From Algisphaera agarilytica (GTDB taxonomy: Bacteria; Planctomycetota; Phycisphaerae; Phycisphaerales; Phycisphaeraceae): DNA of 64,000 bases. Positions 24,135-50,925 of the stretch are shown here, piece after piece; positions within the stretch are counted from its first letter, which is position 1, and the number at the start of each line of letters is the position of its first letter. The notes beneath the pieces were generated by a model. It saw nothing but the letters and a program-made list of their open reading frames with translations. It did no database searches and was not told the DNA's origin. Made by a program: the position numbers and the translations under genes. The stretch is taken from contig NZ_JACHGY010000001.1 in NCBI RefSeq assembly GCF_014207595.1, positions 2,858,836 through 2,922,835 on the forward strand. Reading direction: 5' to 3'.

Positions 24135-24192
24135 TGAAGCGATCAGAATAACATGCCCCGGGCCCGCTCGCCGGGGCGTTGGGAGCAACTTT

Positions 24193-44212: not shown

Positions 44213-44242
44213 ACCATCCACCGAGCGTGGATGGTTTTTTTT
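44213..44242 (+). terminator. Rho-independent terminator
   Basis: A perfect 9-bp stem ACCATCCAC/GTGGATGGT with a CGAGC loop is followed by seven T residues, 30 bp after the zinc-ribbon gene. A family B repeat begins at the end of its T run. Confidence 0.93.
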
Positions 44243-44310
44243 GTAGGTCAGGTCTTCGACCTGACGCGCCACGGTTTCGAGTGCGGCGTCAGGTCGAAGA
44301 CCTGACCTAC
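44243..44310 (+). repeat. Dispersed paired-hairpin repeat family B, copy 2
   Basis: GTAGGTCAGGTCTTCGACCTGACGCG and its inverted partner ending CTGACCTAC, with a different central spacer from the copy at 24193. Inserted next to a terminator. Confidence 0.9.
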
Positions 44311-44327
44311 AGAAACGACTTGTGGGT

Positions 44328-45593
44328 TCAAGTGTTTCGTTGAATCACCGCCCCGGCGACGTGTCCGCCAAAGCCGGCGGCGAAGATGCCGTGGGCACCC
44401 TTGGGGTCGCTGAGCGTAGGCGTTGAGCTGATCGGCAGAGGCGAATGCGGCATCGGGTTTTGGAGCCAGGGCATCGGCGGGAGCTTGCCGGTGCGGGCAC
44501 ACAGGTAGGCGAGGACGAACGACACCAGGCCCGCGCTGCCGAGGCTGTGGCCCAGTGCGCCCTTGTTGGCGTAGACGGCGCTGGGGCCGACGCCGGAGAC
44601 GTGTTCTTCGTGGAAGTGGTGTTGCCGTTGACGTAGCACATCCGCGAGCACGCGGAGTTCGGTGGGGTCGTGCTCGGCGGTGCCGGGGGCGTGGGGGTGC
44701 AGGACGGCGATGGGGCGGTGGCCGAGCAGTTGCTGGGCGACGACGCCGAGCGCTTCCATGCTCTGACTTGGACGGATGAGGTCGCCCGCCTCGGTGGCGA
44801 TGGCGGTATCGACCAGCTCGATCGCCCCGGCGGGCACGGGCTCACCCGGGCTCAGGCGTTTGAGCAGCACCGCAGCACCGACTTCCGAGAGCACAAAGCC
44901 CTGCCGTGATTCGTCGAGCGGGGCCTGGCGGTAGTCGTCGAGCGTCATCGGGGCGAGGACGCCGAGCCGGCGGTAGCTGTGGACGAAGGCGGGCAGCAGG
45001 GCGGCTTCGGACGTGACGACGAGGGCGGTGTCGGATTTCGGATTTTGGATTTTGGATTTCGGGTGTTGCAGCCAGCACTTCGCCTGGTGCAGGGCGGTGA
45101 GGCTGCTGGCGCAGGCGGCGACGGTGTGCCTGTGGACCTCGACGCCGGTGCGTTGGGTCAGGTGGTGGGTGAGGTAGCCGTGGGGGCCGAGGGTGACGGC
45201 CTCGATGAGGCGGTTGGGCAGTTCCTTGTCGCCCAGGTCGTTGACGCGGCCGTGCAGGTCGGACATCGCGGCGACAGCCCCCTTGCTCGTGCCCAGCCAC
45301 GTCGGCATCCCGGTGAGTGGCCGCTGCGCCTCGGTACACGCCTCCCGCGCAGCCCGCTCGGCGAGTTCGACCGTGGGGTCGGTCGCGGTGTGCCGGGCGA
45401 TGCTGACGCCGCCCAGGGCCTGGGCGAGCGGGAGCGGCTCGGTGTCGAATTCCAGCCGATCGACGCGGTCGGTGATCCGCTGGCCCTTGAGCAGGGCGGC
45501 AAACGTTTCCCACGCGGACTGCCCCAGCGGCGTGATGAGCCCGACGCCGGCGACGACGATGCGGGGGGTGGCAGGGGGCGGTTCGGCGGTCAT
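44328..45593 (-). CDS. Beta-ketoacyl synthase (KAS I/II-like) with an in-frame repeat insertion
   Basis: 421 residues. The thiolase-fold synthase shows RIVVAGVGLITPLGQSAWETFAALLKGQ, the nucleophile Cys161 in AACASSL, a His (301) in HPHAPGTAEHDPTE, and Lys344/His349 in NKGALGHSLGSAGL, so the Cys-His-His set is present. It would condense an acyl chain with malonyl-ACP. Residues ~177-188 (HPKSKIQNPKSD) come from a family F dispersed repeat and fall in a loop after the nucleophile helix. Overall it is more diverged than housekeeping FabF (for example ACASS for TACAS). It is divergent from the E1-lipoyl-FabH fusion gene, and the two may form one pathway. Confidence 0.82.
   Translation of the reverse strand: MTAEPPPATPRIVVAGVGLITPLGQSAWETFAALLKGQRITDRVDRLEFDTEPLPLAQALGGVSIARHTATDPTVELAERAAREACTEAQRPLTGMPTWLGTSKGAVAAMSDLHGRVNDLGDKELPNRLIEAVTLGPHGYLTHHLTQRTGVEVHRHTVAACASSLTALHQAKCWLQHPKSKIQNPKSDTALVVTSEAALLPAFVHSYRRLGVLAPMTLDDYRQAPLDESRQGFVLSEVGAAVLLKRLSPGEPVPAGAIELVDTAIATEAGDLIRPSQSMEALGVVAQQLLGHRPIAVLHPHAPGTAEHDPTELRVLADVLRQRQHHFHEEHVSGVGPSAVYANKGALGHSLGSAGLVSFVLAYLCARTGKLPPMPWLQNPMPHSPLPISSTPTLSDPKGAHGIFAAGFGGHVAGAVIQRNT
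45031..45063 (-). repeat. Family F repeat inside the ketoacyl synthase reading frame
   Basis: Minus-strand units AAATCCAAAATCCAAAATCC encode KSKIQNPKS in frame. The repeat is visibly AT-rich inside a GC-rich gene, and its copies at 42656 and 42773 are intergenic, so it is an insertion that kept the frame. Confidence 0.8.
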
Positions 45594-45812: not shown

Positions 45813-48800
45813 ATGTCCGCATCTGACGAACTGAGCCCCACCAAACGCATGAGTCCCGCCCCTTCGGCGGTTGAGCCATCTGGCGGGGGTGCTTCCGGAG
45901 GCGCTTCCGGGGGTGTTTCGTCCGCCTCGCGTGACGGAGGATCTTCGGTCATGGACGACCAACTGCTGGCCACCTACCGGGCGATGCGCACCGCGCGCAC
46001 GACCAACGCCATCGAGGCCGAGCTCGCCTCGGGCGGCGACTCGTTCTTCCACCTGCCCACGACCGGACACGAGTCGGTCGCCGCGTGGAACGCCTTCCTC
46101 ACCCCCGACGACTGGATCCACACCCACTACCGCGACCAGGCCTTGTGGATCGCCCGCGGCATCCCGCCCAAAGCCGTGTTCGATGCCGCGCTGTGCAACG
46201 CTGACAACTACAGCTCGGGCCGTCAGATGGTCGGCTTCCAGGCCAGCCGCAAACTGAACATGCCCAGCACCGTCGTGCCCGTGGCGAACAACTGCACCCA
46301 GGCCGTGGGCATCGCCGCGCACCTCGAAGAGCAGCGCAAGCTCGGCAAGAACGATTCGAATCCCGTGGTCCTCTGCGGCATGGGCGACGGCACCACCCAG
46401 CAGGGCGAGGTCTATGAAGCCATCGCCGACGCCGTCCGCCGCCACCTGCCCGTGTTGTTCTACATCATGGACAACGGCTACGCGATCTCCACGCCCACCC
46501 ATCAGCAAACCTTCTTCGACCGCCCCGAAGGCCCCGCCGACGAGTTCTACGGCCTGCCCATCCACCGCTTTGATGGCCGCGATGTCATGCCCGAGATGCC
46601 CCGCATGGGCGCCCTCGTCGACCACGTCCGCAACAGCCGCGGCCCCGCCATCGCCATCGTCCGTGTAGATCGTTTGTCGAGTCACACGAATGCCGACGAC
46701 CACCGTGTCTATCGCGCCGCCGAGACCATCGAAGAACTCAAGAACACCTCCGATCCATTGGCGAATTTCCGCCGGTCGATGATCGAGCGCGGATTCGACG
46801 AGGCGAAGCTCGACGCGATCGACGCCGAGCTCGAAAAAGAAATCCGCCACGTCAGCGAGCTGTCCCGCCGCGTGGGCGACCCCGAGACGACCTACACCGT
46901 CAGCCGTGAGCTGCCCGCCAAGCTCCAGCGCGACGCGGATGAATACCGCGGTGAATCTAACGCCAAGAGCAACGGCTCGGACAGCCTCATGATGATCGAG
47001 GCGATGCGCGAAACTCTCCGCCACCGCCTCGACACCGACGACAACGTCGTCCTCCTCGGCGAAGACATCGAAGACCCCAAGGGCGACGTCTTCGGCGTCA
47101 CCCGCGGCTTGTCCACCGCCTTCCCCGGCCGCGTCCAAAACACCGCGCTCACCGAGTCCACCATCATCGGCGGCGCGATCGGCCGAGCCATGGCCGGCGG
47201 ACGCCCCGTCGGCTTCATCCAGTTCGCCGACTTCCTGCCCAACGGCATCAGCCAGATCATCAGCGAGCTCGGCAGCATCTACTGGCGCTCCGGCGGCGAG
47301 TTCGAATGCCCCGTGATCCTCATGGTCACCTGCGGCGCCTACCGCCCCGGCCTCGGCCCGTTCCACGCCAACACCTACGAGTCGATGCTCGCCCACATCC
47401 CCGGCGTCGACGTCGTCATGCCCTCCACCGCCGGCGACGCCGCGGGCCTGCTCAACGCCGCCTTCGAATCCAAGCGTCCCACCATCTTTCTCTACCCGAA
47501 GGTGTGTCTTAACGACCGCGCCCTGGCCACCTCGCCCGACGTCGACAAGCAGCTCGTCCCCCTCGGCAAGGCCCGCCTCGAAACCCAGGGCGACGACCTC
47601 ACCCTCGTCGGCTGGGGCAGCACGATGCCCATCGTCCGCGACGTCGCCGCCGAGATCACCAAGCAAACCTCCCGCACCGTCGACCTGTTCGACCTGCGCA
47701 GCATCGACCCGTGGGACCGCCCGGGCATCGCCGCCTCCGCCGCGAAGACCGGCCGCCTCCTCGTCGTCCACGAAGACAACCTCACCGTCGGCTTCGGCGC
47801 CGAGATCGTCGCCGCTGTCACCGAAGACGTCTCCAACGCCGACCCCGGCATGCGGGCTGCAGCCCGCATGGACCTCAAAGTCAAACGCATCACCCGCCCC
47901 GACACCTACGTCCCGACGAACTACAAGAACCAGCTCGAGATCCTCCCGAGTTTCCGCCGCACCCTCACCGCCGCCTGTGAATTACTCGACCTGACCGTCG
48001 ATTTCGGCACCACCTCCGAAGCCGCAGCATCCGTCGGCGGCGGCGAGATCGAAACCATCGAAGCCCAAGGCTCCGCCCCCACCGATCAGGCCGTCACCGT
48101 CGTCCAATGGCTGTGCAAGCCCGGCGAAGCCGTGACCAACGGCCAGGTCATCGCCGAACTCGAAGCCGACAAAGCCATCTTCGAATACTCCGCCCCCTAC
48201 GACGCCGTCGTCGCCGAGCTCCTCCTGCCCGAAGGCGAACAGGTCGATGTCGGCACCCCGATGCTCAAGCTCGAGAAGCCCACCCTCGCTGCTGATGCGG
48301 ACCTTGACGACCCGCTCTCGGCCCCCGTCGTCAAACGCCCCGCCCGCGAAGACCGCGGCACCCCCACAATCACCGACCCCACCGGCGTGCCGACTTCAGT
48401 CGGCATGGAACCCACCCACAAAACCCCCGGCGTCGCCCCCGTCCGCGTCGGCGGCCGCCAGGTCCGCGTCTACCTCTCGCCCGTCCACTACGCCGAGGGC
48501 ACCGACCGCCTCACCAACGCCGACCTCATCCGCCGCTTCCCCGACTACACCAGCGACGACATCATCAAACGCACCGGCATCGAGTCGCGTCCCTACTGCT
48601 CCCACAAGCAGAACGCCCTCTCGATGGCCATCGACGCCGCCCAGAAAGCGCTCGCCGCCGAGGGCCTTACCGTCCACGACCTCACCGGCATCGTCTGCCA
48701 CACCACCACGCCGCCGCTCAACACCCCGAGCATGGCCTGCATGGTGCTCAACGCCCTCGACCCCACCGGCGACGCCGAGCTCATGGTCTACGACGTCAAC

Positions 48801-49457
48801 GCCGCCTGCTCCGGCTGGCTCTACGCCCTCGACGCCGCCCACAACACCATCCAGCACAACCCCGACTCCGCCGTCCTCGTCGTCACCACCGAGTGCCTCT
48901 CCCGCGTGGTCAACCCCGACGACTTCGGCACCGCCATCCTCTTCGGCGACGCCGCCACCGCCACCGTCGCCCGCGGCGCCGTCGCCCCCGGGAGCGGCCC
49001 CGCCAAGGACGAAGACTTCGACATCCCCGCCGGGTCCATGATGCTCAGCCAACCCGTCCTCGCCGGTAAGGCCGACCCCGCCCACGCCATCACCGTCGGC
49101 TTCGAGGGCCGCGGCCACATCACCATGCAGGGCAAACGCGTCTTCACCGAAGCCGTCCGCGCCATGACCAAGATGACCAACCAGGCCTTCGAACGCTCCG
49201 GCGCCGCCCTCGAAGACCTCGACTGGCTCGTCCCCCACCAGGCCAACGCCCGCATCCTCGAAGCCGCCCGCATCCGCCTGAAGATCCCCAAAGAAAAAAT
49301 CATCAACCTCATCGACGTCCACGGCAACACCAGCTCCTCGTCGATCCCCATCTCCATCGCCAAGTCCACCGAAAAATTCGAACCCGGCAACATCGTCGGC
49401 GTCTGCGCCTTCGGCGGCGGCTTCACTTTCGGCGCCGCGATCCTTGAGATCGTTTGA
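45813..49457 (+). CDS. E1-alpha / E1-beta / lipoyl domain / FabH fusion protein
   Basis: 1214 residues. A flexible Gly/Ser/Ala N-tail of ~45 residues is followed by E1-alpha (~45-380) with TPP motif GMGDGTTQQGEVYEAIADAV...NGYAIS and a BCKDH-type loop (SHTNADDHRVYR). E1-beta (~390-735) has VVLLGEDIEDPKGDVFGVT, the Glu in LTEST and His in GPFHAN. The lipoyl domain (~750-823) has the lipoylation Lys787 in ELEADKAIFE. A Pro-rich linker of ~50 residues leads to FabH (~885-1214) with Cys999 in NAACSGW, His1142 in VPHQANA and Asn1172 in HGNTSSS. No E2 acyltransferase core is present. It would decarboxylate a 2-oxo acid onto the lipoyl arm and condense the acyl primer. ATG 45951, with GGAGG ten nt upstream, is a plausible later start. 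Confidence 0.9.
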   Translation: MSASDELSPTKRMSPAPSAVEPSGGGASGGASGGVSSASRDGGSSVMDDQLLATYRAMRTARTTNAIEAELASGGDSFFHLPTTGHESVAAWNAFLTPDDWIHTHYRDQALWIARGIPPKAVFDAALCNADNYSSGRQMVGFQASRKLNMPSTVVPVANNCTQAVGIAAHLEEQRKLGKNDSNPVVLCGMGDGTTQQGEVYEAIADAVRRHLPVLFYIMDNGYAISTPTHQQTFFDRPEGPADEFYGLPIHRFDGRDVMPEMPRMGALVDHVRNSRGPAIAIVRVDRLSSHTNADDHRVYRAAETIEELKNTSDPLANFRRSMIERGFDEAKLDAIDAELEKEIRHVSELSRRVGDPETTYTVSRELPAKLQRDADEYRGESNAKSNGSDSLMMIEAMRETLRHRLDTDDNVVLLGEDIEDPKGDVFGVTRGLSTAFPGRVQNTALTESTIIGGAIGRAMAGGRPVGFIQFADFLPNGISQIISELGSIYWRSGGEFECPVILMVTCGAYRPGLGPFHANTYESMLAHIPGVDVVMPSTAGDAAGLLNAAFESKRPTIFLYPKVCLNDRALATSPDVDKQLVPLGKARLETQGDDLTLVGWGSTMPIVRDVAAEITKQTSRTVDLFDLRSIDPWDRPGIAASAAKTGRLLVVHEDNLTVGFGAEIVAAVTEDVSNADPGMRAAARMDLKVKRITRPDTYVPTNYKNQLEILPSFRRTLTAACELLDLTVDFGTTSEAAASVGGGEIETIEAQGSAPTDQAVTVVQWLCKPGEAVTNGQVIAELEADKAIFEYSAPYDAVVAELLLPEGEQVDVGTPMLKLEKPTLAADADLDDPLSAPVVKRPAREDRGTPTITDPTGVPTSVGMEPTHKTPGVAPVRVGGRQVRVYLSPVHYAEGTDRLTNADLIRRFPDYTSDDIIKRTGIESRPYCSHKQNALSMAIDAAQKALAAEGLTVHDLTGIVCHTTTPPLNTPSMACMVLNALDPTGDAELMVYDVNAACSGWLYALDAAHNTIQHNPDSAVLVVTTECLSRVVNPDDFGTAILFGDAATATVARGAVAPGSGPAKDEDFDIPAGSMMLSQPVLAGKADPAHAITVGFEGRGHITMQGKRVFTEAVRAMTKMTNQAFERSGAALEDLDWLVPHQANARILEAARIRLKIPKEKIINLIDVHGNTSSSSIPISIAKSTEKFEPGNIVGVCAFGGGFTFGAAILEIV

Positions 49458-49495: not shown

Positions 49496-50176
49496 ATGGC
49501 AAGAAATAAATCAAAAACTCGTGAAGTTGCGAAAAAGGCAGAGATAATTGCAACTGATGACGAGATGCATTTCATACTTGCTAGAGCGGCAAGTCATCGT
49601 GAAGAACATTGGGAAGAGTATCTTGAGGCTTGTGCGATAGCCGGTGTTAAACCATTGGCGGTAGATGATGCTAAGTCTGAATTTGATTCGTTTCTTTCCA
49701 GAGTTAGGGGCAGCGTAGACACTGAATTGATTACCTCGAGATTGGAGCCGAGTGATTTATCTCAAGCAATACCTGAAAGAGGTGTCTCAAGAAAATCCGC
49801 GTTGGTTGCTGCGAATGATATAGGAATAGATGAGTTTAAATTATTATGTGAGAAGGCGAGGGGATTAGGACGCGATTTTGTTTTGTTTAACGGCAATTAC
49901 TACCGTTATTTTGAAGCTAGAGGGTGGCGGCTTGCTGATCATTTTGAGTCTTTGGTAATAGAACAGGCTGCACGGGCTGGTGGAATGCCTTGGTTTGATG
50001 GACCGGTGATTAGTACGAATCTTGGTGACATGATTGTTGCTCCTTACATAAAAAAGGACGGCACACGTGTAGTTGGGCACACAAAAAACTCTAGGGGGAA
50101 GGGTAGAGCCCGCACCCGAACGAATGGTGTAAAGCTTACCCGTGAGCAGATAAACTCAATGAAGAAGGTTGAGTGA
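49496..50176 (+). CDS. AT-rich orphan gene, function unknown (likely horizontally acquired)
   Basis: 226 residues, basic, no signal peptide or membrane helix. The N-terminus is Lys-rich (MARNKSKTREVAKKAE) and the C-terminus (GHTKNSRGKGRARTRTNG) is strongly basic, which would suit nucleic-acid binding, though this is only a charge argument. Base use differs sharply from all neighbours: A/T at third positions (for example runs of AAA, GAT, TTA codons) where the rest of the window is GC-rich. It starts 38 bp after the fusion gene stop on the same strand and has no visible ribosome site. No family recognised. Confidence 0.7.
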   Translation: MARNKSKTREVAKKAEIIATDDEMHFILARAASHREEHWEEYLEACAIAGVKPLAVDDAKSEFDSFLSRVRGSVDTELITSRLEPSDLSQAIPERGVSRKSALVAANDIGIDEFKLLCEKARGLGRDFVLFNGNYYRYFEARGWRLADHFESLVIEQAARAGGMPWFDGPVISTNLGDMIVAPYIKKDGTRVVGHTKNSRGKGRARTRTNGVKLTREQINSMKKVE

Positions 50177-50327
50177 TGGGGGGTTCAACTGGGCTCTACC
50201 CCTGAGCAGAAAAGGGGGCGGGTGGTCGGGGCAGCATGCCCCGGAACGAGTGCTCGTGCAATCCGAGCGTATAGAGATTCCGGGGCATCGCGTTGCTCTG
50301 CCCCGGCCACCCACCACGGTCGGTTTT

Positions 50328-50396
50328 GTAGGTCAGGCATGCTTGCCTGACGTGAGGTTTCTGTGGCTCGGTGTCAGGCAGGCATGCCTGACCTAC
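50328..50396 (+). repeat. Paired-hairpin repeat family B, variant B-prime, copy 1
   Basis: GTAGGTCAGGCATGCTTGCCTGACGTG and its inverted partner ending CTGACCTAC. Outer arms equal family B, but the inner stem is CAGGCA/TGCCTG where family B has CAGGT/ACCTG. Confidence 0.9.
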
Positions 50397-50925
50397 AGTG
50401 CTTGGCTTCCGGCCACAACGACTCTGCCCTGCGCACAGCAGGTCGCGCCTGAGCCGCTTCAATCAAAAAAATTTTCGCGGCTTATCCAACGACTCCGCAT
50501 CGGTTTGCAGAATCCGGGGGCACGTTTGTGCGCACGTTCGTGACATGGCCCCCCTTTTTGGAGGAGAGGTTTTTTCGGCACCCCGCGGCGGCGGGACGGT
50601 GATAGGCAAGGACCGTCTCGTGAGATGCGCGGGGAGGGCCGGGCTCGCGTTTTGAAGCGTGGGGGTTTCGGCGTTCGTCGGTGAGTCACCTTGCCGACAA
50701 CAGACACGATGGACCGTGGCGTAATCGCGCGGCCGCCCTCAACACGCGGGTCGAGGACGTTGGCTTGAAGTGAACCGCGCGACACGGGCCGATGCGTGTG
50801 GCGGGGTTGGGCCGAGCGTTCGCTCTTTGGAAATTAGGGGCTTGGGTATTGGGGCTTAGGGGCTTGGGCTGCGAGCCGAACGTTTTTCTGAGGTAGCGAC
50901 GTTGCTTCGCAACGTGGGTCGCCTT

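Follow-up and report, generated by a model that had tools for sequence, protein, structure and literature searches.

A single-chain fusion of 2-oxoacid dehydrogenase E1, lipoyl domain and FabH as a candidate E2-less initiator of acyl chain synthesis

The fusion gene and its domains

The stretch of DNA analyzed here, called the window, comprises 64,000 nucleotides of the planctomycete Algisphaera agarilytica (contig NZ_JACHGY010000001.1, positions 2,858,836 to 2,922,835). It contains a gene that joins both subunits of a 2-oxoacid dehydrogenase E1, a lipoyl domain and FabH, a beta-ketoacyl-acyl carrier protein (ACP) synthase III (KAS III), in one polypeptide. The initial annotation, made from the letters of the window, had proposed this arrangement with an intact lipoyl lysine and the Cys, His and Asn of FabH, and translation of the open frame, Pfam searches and an alignment of 85 such fusions bear it out, with no internal stop across the 1214 codons. 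The gene and its parts are as follows.

45813-49457, forward strand: E1-alpha/E1-beta/lipoyl/FabH fusion gene (P0001), 1214 residues (open frame, Pfam, alignment of 85 fusions)
45975-46862, forward strand: E1-alpha domain, thiamine pyrophosphate (TPP)-binding, residues 55-350 (Pfam E1_dh, 2.2e-35; best PDB matches 1um9_A, then the alpha subunit of human branched-chain 2-oxoacid dehydrogenase, BCKDH)
46986-47936, forward strand: E1-beta, Transket_pyr at residues 392-563 and Transketolase_C at 585-708 (Pfam; His518 and Glu448 in 85/85 fusions)
48093-48272, forward strand: lipoyl domain, residues 761-820 (Pfam Biotin_lipoyl, 1.5e-14)
48171-48173, forward strand: codon of lipoyl Lys787 in an EADKA motif (Lys in 85/85 aligned fusions)
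48288-48455, forward strand: Pro-rich lipoyl-to-FabH linker, approximately residues 826-881 (composition; last 24 residues modelled with a predicted local distance difference test score, pLDDT, below 50)
48501-49451, forward strand: FabH (KAS III) domain, residues 897-1213 (NCBIfam NF006829, Pfam, Foldseek target template modelling score about 0.9 to Escherichia coli FabH)
48558-48560, forward strand: codon of Asp916, which aligns with Trp32 of E. coli FabH, a residue that stacks on the adenine of coenzyme A (CoA) (alignment)
48807-48809, forward strand: codon of FabH Cys999, the active-site cysteine (sequence, alignment)
48924-48926, forward strand: codon of Phe1038, which aligns with Arg151 of E. 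coli FabH, a residue that also stacks on the CoA adenine (alignment)
49236-49238, forward strand: codon of FabH His1142 (sequence, alignment)
49326-49328, forward strand: codon of FabH Asn1172 (sequence, alignment)

All the domains of a 2-oxoacid dehydrogenase E1 alpha/beta pair are present, together with His518 and Glu448, which we take to be the catalytic His and Glu of E1, and the lipoyl domain carries a modifiable lysine, Lys787, as its predicted lipoylation site. The C-terminal part has the thiolase fold and the Cys-His-Asn set of a KAS III (Pfam, alignment, Foldseek), with the two Pfam halves at residues 993-1054 (ACP_syn_III) and 1127-1213 (ACP_syn_III_C, 2.5e-26). NCBIfam model NF006829 names it beta-ketoacyl-ACP synthase 3 at 255.3 bits, barely above the cut-off of 249, and its score of 225.5 against TIGR00747 (fabH) lies below the cut-off of 292.1. 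An AlphaFold2 model of residues 45-1214, built with 44 family sequences, has a mean pLDDT of 88.6 and a predicted template modelling score (pTM) of 0.70; pLDDT falls below 50 at residues 384-387 and 419-425, both in E1, and at 735-743 and 858-881, in the linkers flanking the lipoyl domain. Searched with Foldseek, the FabH part of this model matches E. coli and other FabHs and the E1-beta part matches the Thermus branched-chain E1.

The absence of an E2 acyltransferase core, also claimed in the initial annotation, holds: a Pfam scan of the fusion protein found neither 2-oxoacid_dh (the E2 core, PF00198) nor an E3-binding domain, and no PP-binding (ACP) domain. The chain lacks, that is, the E2 core and peripheral-subunit-binding domain with which a 2-oxoacid dehydrogenase complex hands the acyl group to CoA. 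The linkers had been described as Pro-rich in the manner of E2 swinging arms, and this is right for the lipoyl-FabH linker (12.5% Pro over 85 fusions; 9 of 60 residues in the window protein) and wrong for the E1-lipoyl linker (4.8% over the 85 fusions).

Occurrence and integrity of the fusion

The window's family has matches to the fusion at E<=1e-100 in 12 of 51 genomes, spread over 6 of 33 genera; 11 of these matches run from E1 through FabH (two clipped on one side by a contig end), and in the remaining one, from genome G001, the contig stops within E1. Of 397 genomes of the class, 6 have a match at 1e-150, every one from this family, and phylum-wide 17 of 392 match at 1e-100, with the full fusion in five and a best match that stops at or before query residue 842 in the other twelve. 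The class Verrucomicrobiae yields matches at E<=1e-100 in 57 of 384 genomes, 14 of which extend to the end of FabH. A wider genome scan, with seven aligned family members as the query, matched at least 592 stretches, at least 338 of them encoding relatives, and our detailed comparisons use the best 80 of these at least 338 relatives.

All 80 kept loci show the same domain order in one uninterrupted frame (a few reach the end of a contig and are incomplete), with lengths of 1083-1501 residues as given by a gene caller that possibly chose too early a start. By record name they belong to Planctomycetota (26), Verrucomicrobiota (18), Spirochaetota (16), Kiritimatiellota (14), Lentisphaerota (3), Pseudomonadota (2) and Myxococcota (1); 78 of the 80 carry the label of a metagenome-assembled genome (MAG), and some of the taxon names look doubtful. 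The only two that do not, from Cerasicoccus arenae KCTC 12870 and Pontiellaceae bacterium B1224, have an identical Pfam order. A check for a frameshift or assembly join found none, and this explanation was rejected on the 80 in-frame loci and the 11 of 51 family genomes in which E1 runs through FabH in frame. The initial annotation had suggested searching for the same domain order and mapping it on a planctomycete tree; the order does recur, but in a family far wider than the planctomycetes, and with relatives in several phyla from the wider scan we rejected a planctomycete-only oddity. One genome (G789; L071, contigs C78 and C223) has two KAS III matches in fusion-length frames of 1166 and 1176 residues, perhaps paralogous fusions or a mixed bin.

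Conservation of the active sites and origin of the fusion

The conservation alignment comprises the 80 kept loci together with five fusions from the window's family, that of the window included. Lipoyl Lys787, FabH Cys999 and His1142, and E1 His518 and Glu448 are invariant in all 85, and FabH Asn1172 is present in 84, the exception being a truncated row. Only one pair among the 85 exceeds 95% identity; since the catalytic residues are invariant in such diverse fusions, all the active sites seem to be jointly under selection. Pairwise distances of the E1 and FabH parts correlate with r 0.83, a value reached in 0 of 999 permutations, as would be expected if both parts were inherited as a unit.

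In a FabH tree, 34 fusion FabH halves form one clade (support 100) apart from 21 stand-alone FabHs and E. coli FabH, and the fusion E1 halves likewise form one clade (support 100) in the E1 tree. The sister of this E1 clade (support 96 in one and 95 in the other of two quick trees made without bootstraps) consists of four planctomycete single chains (group f73) of E1-alpha, E1-beta, lipoyl domain and E2 core, these domains being called by Pfam on one of the four and by sequence reading on the others. Further E1-lipoyl-E2 fusions from Verrucomicrobiae, confirmed by Pfam in 7 of 7 tested, are placed elsewhere in the E1 tree. Both kinds of chain share the N-terminal E1-alpha/beta and lipoyl parts with the fusion, but they carry a C-terminal 2-oxoacid_dh acyltransferase where the fusion has FabH. 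FabH likely took the place of the E2 core behind the same lipoyl arm, or the E2 core that of FabH; the swap could have run in either direction. The f73 chains lie at L054-L058 and the Verrucomicrobiae counterparts at L191-L206.

The CoA pocket of the fused FabH

In E. coli FabH the CoA adenine is bonded by Thr28 and stacked between Trp32 and Arg151, and the pantetheine arm is held by Arg36 and two Asn residues (PMC4606726). We compared these positions in the 85 fused FabHs and in 21 stand-alone FabHs, 20 from other fusion-carrying genomes and one from the window genome. Thr28 occurs in 0/85 fused versus 18/21 stand-alone FabHs, Trp32 in 0/85 versus 21/21, and Arg or Lys at 151 in 0/85 versus 20/21. 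No fused FabH has any of these CoA-adenine contacts of KAS III, whereas each of the 21 stand-alone enzymes has at least one and 18 have all three. Asn247 and Arg249 are present in 85/85 fused FabHs and are invariant in the stand-alone set too, and Arg36 is found in 75/85 fused versus 19/21 stand-alone FabHs. The simplest reading of these residues would be that the fused FabH still takes a phosphopantetheine arm, that of malonyl-ACP, but no longer holds CoA.

Several aspects of the comparison count against this. The 20 stand-alone FabHs were chosen among the hits with higher scores, which tilts the set towards canonical enzymes, and the comparison is with canonical stand-alone FabHs, excluding other KAS III paralogues. 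Lys214, which we take to be part of the FabH surface that docks ACP, is found in 14/85 fused versus 19/21 stand-alone FabHs, and an acyl donor bound to ACP would also be consistent with a lost adenine pocket.

The alignment shows that Bacillus subtilis FabHA (8vd9), which presumably uses branched acyl groups, retains the Trp, so that use of branched acyl groups does not by itself explain the loss of the contacts in the fusions. The gate position, Phe87, is Thr or Ser in 83/85 fused FabHs and Phe in 13/21 stand-alone ones, and Thr at this position accompanies longer acyl groups (PMC3734052). A Mycobacterium tuberculosis FabH mutant, W42A,R161A, is named in the title of structure 2aj9; we found no mention of it among the literature matches listed.

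Proposed mechanism

We propose that the fusion is probably a one-chain initiator, in which FabH has replaced E2, is loaded by the lipoyl arm and condenses the acyl group with malonyl-ACP without free acyl-CoA. The substrate of E1, with TPP, would be a 2-oxoacid, probably branched-chain; its decarboxylation would be coupled to reductive acylation of the lipoyl arm, which would then swing to FabH, positioned where a dehydrogenase complex has its E2 acyltransferase. From S-acyl-dihydrolipoyl the acyl group would pass to the FabH cysteine and be condensed with malonyl-ACP to give 3-oxoacyl-ACP and CO2, and a free E3 (Lpd) would reoxidise the lipoyl arm. The net reaction would be 2-oxoacid + malonyl-ACP + NAD+ -> 3-oxoacyl-ACP + 2 CO2 + NADH, free acyl-CoA not being involved, and its products might be used in branched-chain lipid synthesis. 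If the quaternary structures that we take the separate enzymes to have apply here, two fusion chains would make one alpha2beta2 E1 and one FabH dimer. The initial annotation is borne out in part: the architecture is conserved and E2-less, and the CoA bypass it raised gains from the adenine contacts lost in 85/85 fusions, the sister proteins with an E2 core and a window genome in which the only E2s found are a PDH-like (pyruvate dehydrogenase-like) one and SucB; the direct hand-off at its centre we infer.

The lipoyl-lysine arm, of about 14 Å, is shorter than the pantetheine arm that the FabH tunnel fits, and this, together with parts of the genomic context, weighs against the scheme. Among the 53 fusion genomes searched, all have two or more KAS III (PF08541) matches, and the idea that the fusion is the sole FabH of its genome was rejected on this count; 50 encode an E2, which makes E2 action in trans possible; and three lack Lpd and eight lack LipA above cut-off (found in 50 and 45, respectively). 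The eight LipA exceptions comprise five split or partial hits, the window genome included, two weak hits and one genome with none, and the Lpd and LipA exceptions may be incomplete MAGs or real. The fusion is also mostly solitary, with no neighbour cluster in more than 11 of the 80 kept loci. The window genome itself has a standard FabH above the NCBIfam cut-off, beside genes that read as FabD, FabG, ACP and FabF (L028). One other alpha-beta E1 was found there, PDH-like with the alpha subunit slightly below cut-off, as were two E2s, one PDH-like (slightly below cut-off) and the other SucB.

Substrate and alternative explanations

As a first guess, the substrates are likely branched-chain 2-oxoacids, going by E1 similarity and the Thr/Ser gate of the fused FabH. 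In PDB sequence comparisons E1-alpha scores best with the Thermus E1 and human BCKDH alpha, above the PDH alphas. Opitutae relatives carry iso-C14:0, iso-C15:0 and anteiso-C15:0 (PMC10288369, PMC5303756), the fusion not being shown in those strains. The guess is opposed by the Pseudomonas putida BCKDH alpha, which scores under the PDH alphas for the fusion E1-alpha; by 1ik6, named a pyruvate dehydrogenase, which is the second match of E1-beta after the Thermus E1 and before human BCKDH; by the PDH names of the NCBIfam E1 matches, all below cut-off; and by the description of C14:0 and C18:1 as predominant in Cerasicoccaceae (PMC10288369).

It is doubtful, though the best of the alternatives, that the group transferred is something other than a branched acyl group (aromatic or acetyl, for instance) and serves a special lipid or polyketide, which would be compatible with direct hand-off. 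With more than one KAS III match in 53/53 genomes the fusion may serve a separate pathway, the E1 family names are PDH-like (below cut-off), and four related genomes have a gene resembling 2-oxoacid:ferredoxin oxidoreductases upstream of the fusion (described below). The higher E1-alpha scores against the Thermus and human branched-chain enzymes than against PDH, and the iso and anteiso acids of the Opitutae relatives, argue the other way.

We consider it quite unlikely that the fusion works by proximity channelling, a separate E2 making acyl-CoA in trans and the tethered FabH using this acyl-CoA normally. An E2 core is encoded in 50 of the 53 genomes, and FabH ordinarily takes acyl-CoA, as in the B. 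subtilis pathway (PMC6461809), but the CoA-adenine contacts are gone in 85/85 fused FabHs, Pfam detects neither an E2 core nor an E3-binding domain in the fusion protein, and the E2s found in the window genome are the PDH-like one and SucB.

The last alternative involves a neighbouring gene.

44328-45593, reverse strand: divergent FabF-like ketosynthase, with the Cys and two His positions kept (Pfam, alignment, gene positions)

This ketosynthase adjoins the fusion or sits within two genes of it in 9 of the 12 matching family genomes, and it is a possible partner of the fusion; it is present in 41/51 family genomes versus 12/51 for the fusion and occurs without the fusion too. We judge improbable a scheme in which FabH serves only as an acyltransferase, placing the group carried by the lipoyl arm on ACP for condensation by a FabF-type ketosynthase, for instance this one: the closeness of the ketosynthase in 9/12 genomes, its retained catalytic positions and the existence of a lipoyl-E2-ACP-ketosynthase order in Streptomyces xanthii speak for it, but the fused FabH has the full Cys-His-Asn condensing set, the ketosynthase is far commoner in the family than the fusion, and elsewhere it is not a conserved neighbour.

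Comparison with known systems

Fatty acid initiation is taught as condensation of acyl-CoA with malonyl-ACP. The closest parallel in its steps is the B. subtilis bkd system with FabH, in which E1, a lipoyl arm and FabH condensation with malonyl-ACP also appear, through separate proteins and by way of acyl-CoA (PMC6461809). There the E1 subunits, E2 and FabH are separate and FabHA keeps the adenine Trp, whereas the fusion is one chain with no E2 and no adenine contacts. Photorhabdus BkdABC is likewise a Bkd system, reported to yield a 3-oxoacyl thioester (5-methyl-3-oxohexanoyl), but it is divided among three proteins, of which BkdB has an ACP domain (PMC4578411, compared by description only), and the fusion has no ACP domain.

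A third parallel was seen on S. xanthii plasmid NZ_CP061282.1 (L034 14878-32013), where a fused E1-alpha/beta lies beside a nonribosomal peptide synthetase-polyketide synthase that starts lipoyl-E2-ACP-ketosynthase, likely an acyl-loading device. It resembles the fusion in that a fused E1-alpha/beta stands next to a lipoyl arm tied to a synthase; it differs in having an E2 core, for which the tethered ACP would probably be the acceptor of the acyl group, where the fusion has FabH instead. None of the B. subtilis, Photorhabdus and Streptomyces systems was seen to be both E2-less and provided with FabH in the place of E2 (BkdABC by description only). The initial annotation knew of no characterized example, and our literature search for such a fusion and for Photorhabdus Bkd, which covered titles and the starts of abstracts, with subscription papers and preprints outside its scope, agrees in having found no description of one.

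There is a fair chance that the chemistry of the fusion is new in kind. We lean towards regarding it as a new enzyme class, a 2-oxoacid dehydrogenase-ketosynthase lacking E2, whose lipoyl arm would load a KAS III cysteine directly, bringing branched or other primers into the synthesis of fatty acids or polyketides without acyl-CoA, and which would have spread through Spirochaetota and the Planctomycetes-Verrucomicrobia-Chlamydiae superphylum after one ancient E2-to-FabH swap. If true, this would be a second initiation route, leading from a 2-oxoacid directly to the first 3-oxoacyl-ACP with no free acyl-CoA and with primer supply coupled to NADH, and would offer engineers a one-gene starter module. 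In groups of bacteria about whose lipid genetics little is known, the fusion could account for iso and anteiso primers; it may also be relevant to the branched lipids made by Verrucomicrobiota, one of which is the a15:0-i15:0 phosphatidylethanolamine of Akkermansia muciniphila. For that immunomodulatory lipid, BCKDH and FabH steps have been proposed from the genome (PMC9328018). The fusion is present in one MAG named Akkermansia muciniphila (L103), a label that is doubtful.

Gene neighbourhood and other observations

Among the neighbour clusters beside the kept loci are those of a phosphoenolpyruvate-utilising/GAF protein (11/80), aconitase (10/80) and short-chain dehydrogenases (6/80, named by reading). 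Neighbours vary across phyla, and the neighbourhood was dropped as a guide to the pathway. In genome G014 (L024 1629-4409) the fusion has two further FabF-like ketosynthase genes next to it, and in one of these Glu occupies the position of the active-site Cys.

Four genomes, all from one related genus, have a gene of approximately 1190 residues upstream of the fusion (L021 4550-8122, L059 13059-16685, L062 2884-6489 and L063 5603-9166). DUF6537 was detected in 3 of 3 tested, one of which also has a sub-cut-off POR domain, and in sequence the gene resembles one-chain 2-oxoacid:ferredoxin oxidoreductases. A search of the window genome, made there without a positive control, gave no match to this DUF6537/POR-like gene.

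Directly downstream of the fusion, at 49496-50176, lies an open frame that matches no Pfam family. It sits in a stretch of lower GC (0.523 at 49-50 kb) and may be recently acquired. Palindromic repeats around TGTAGGTCAGG occur at 44238-44315 and 50327-50397, with half sites at 24192 and 50925; with six exact 11-mers versus 0.01 expected, they are a dispersed element like the repetitive extragenic palindromic (REP) sequences.

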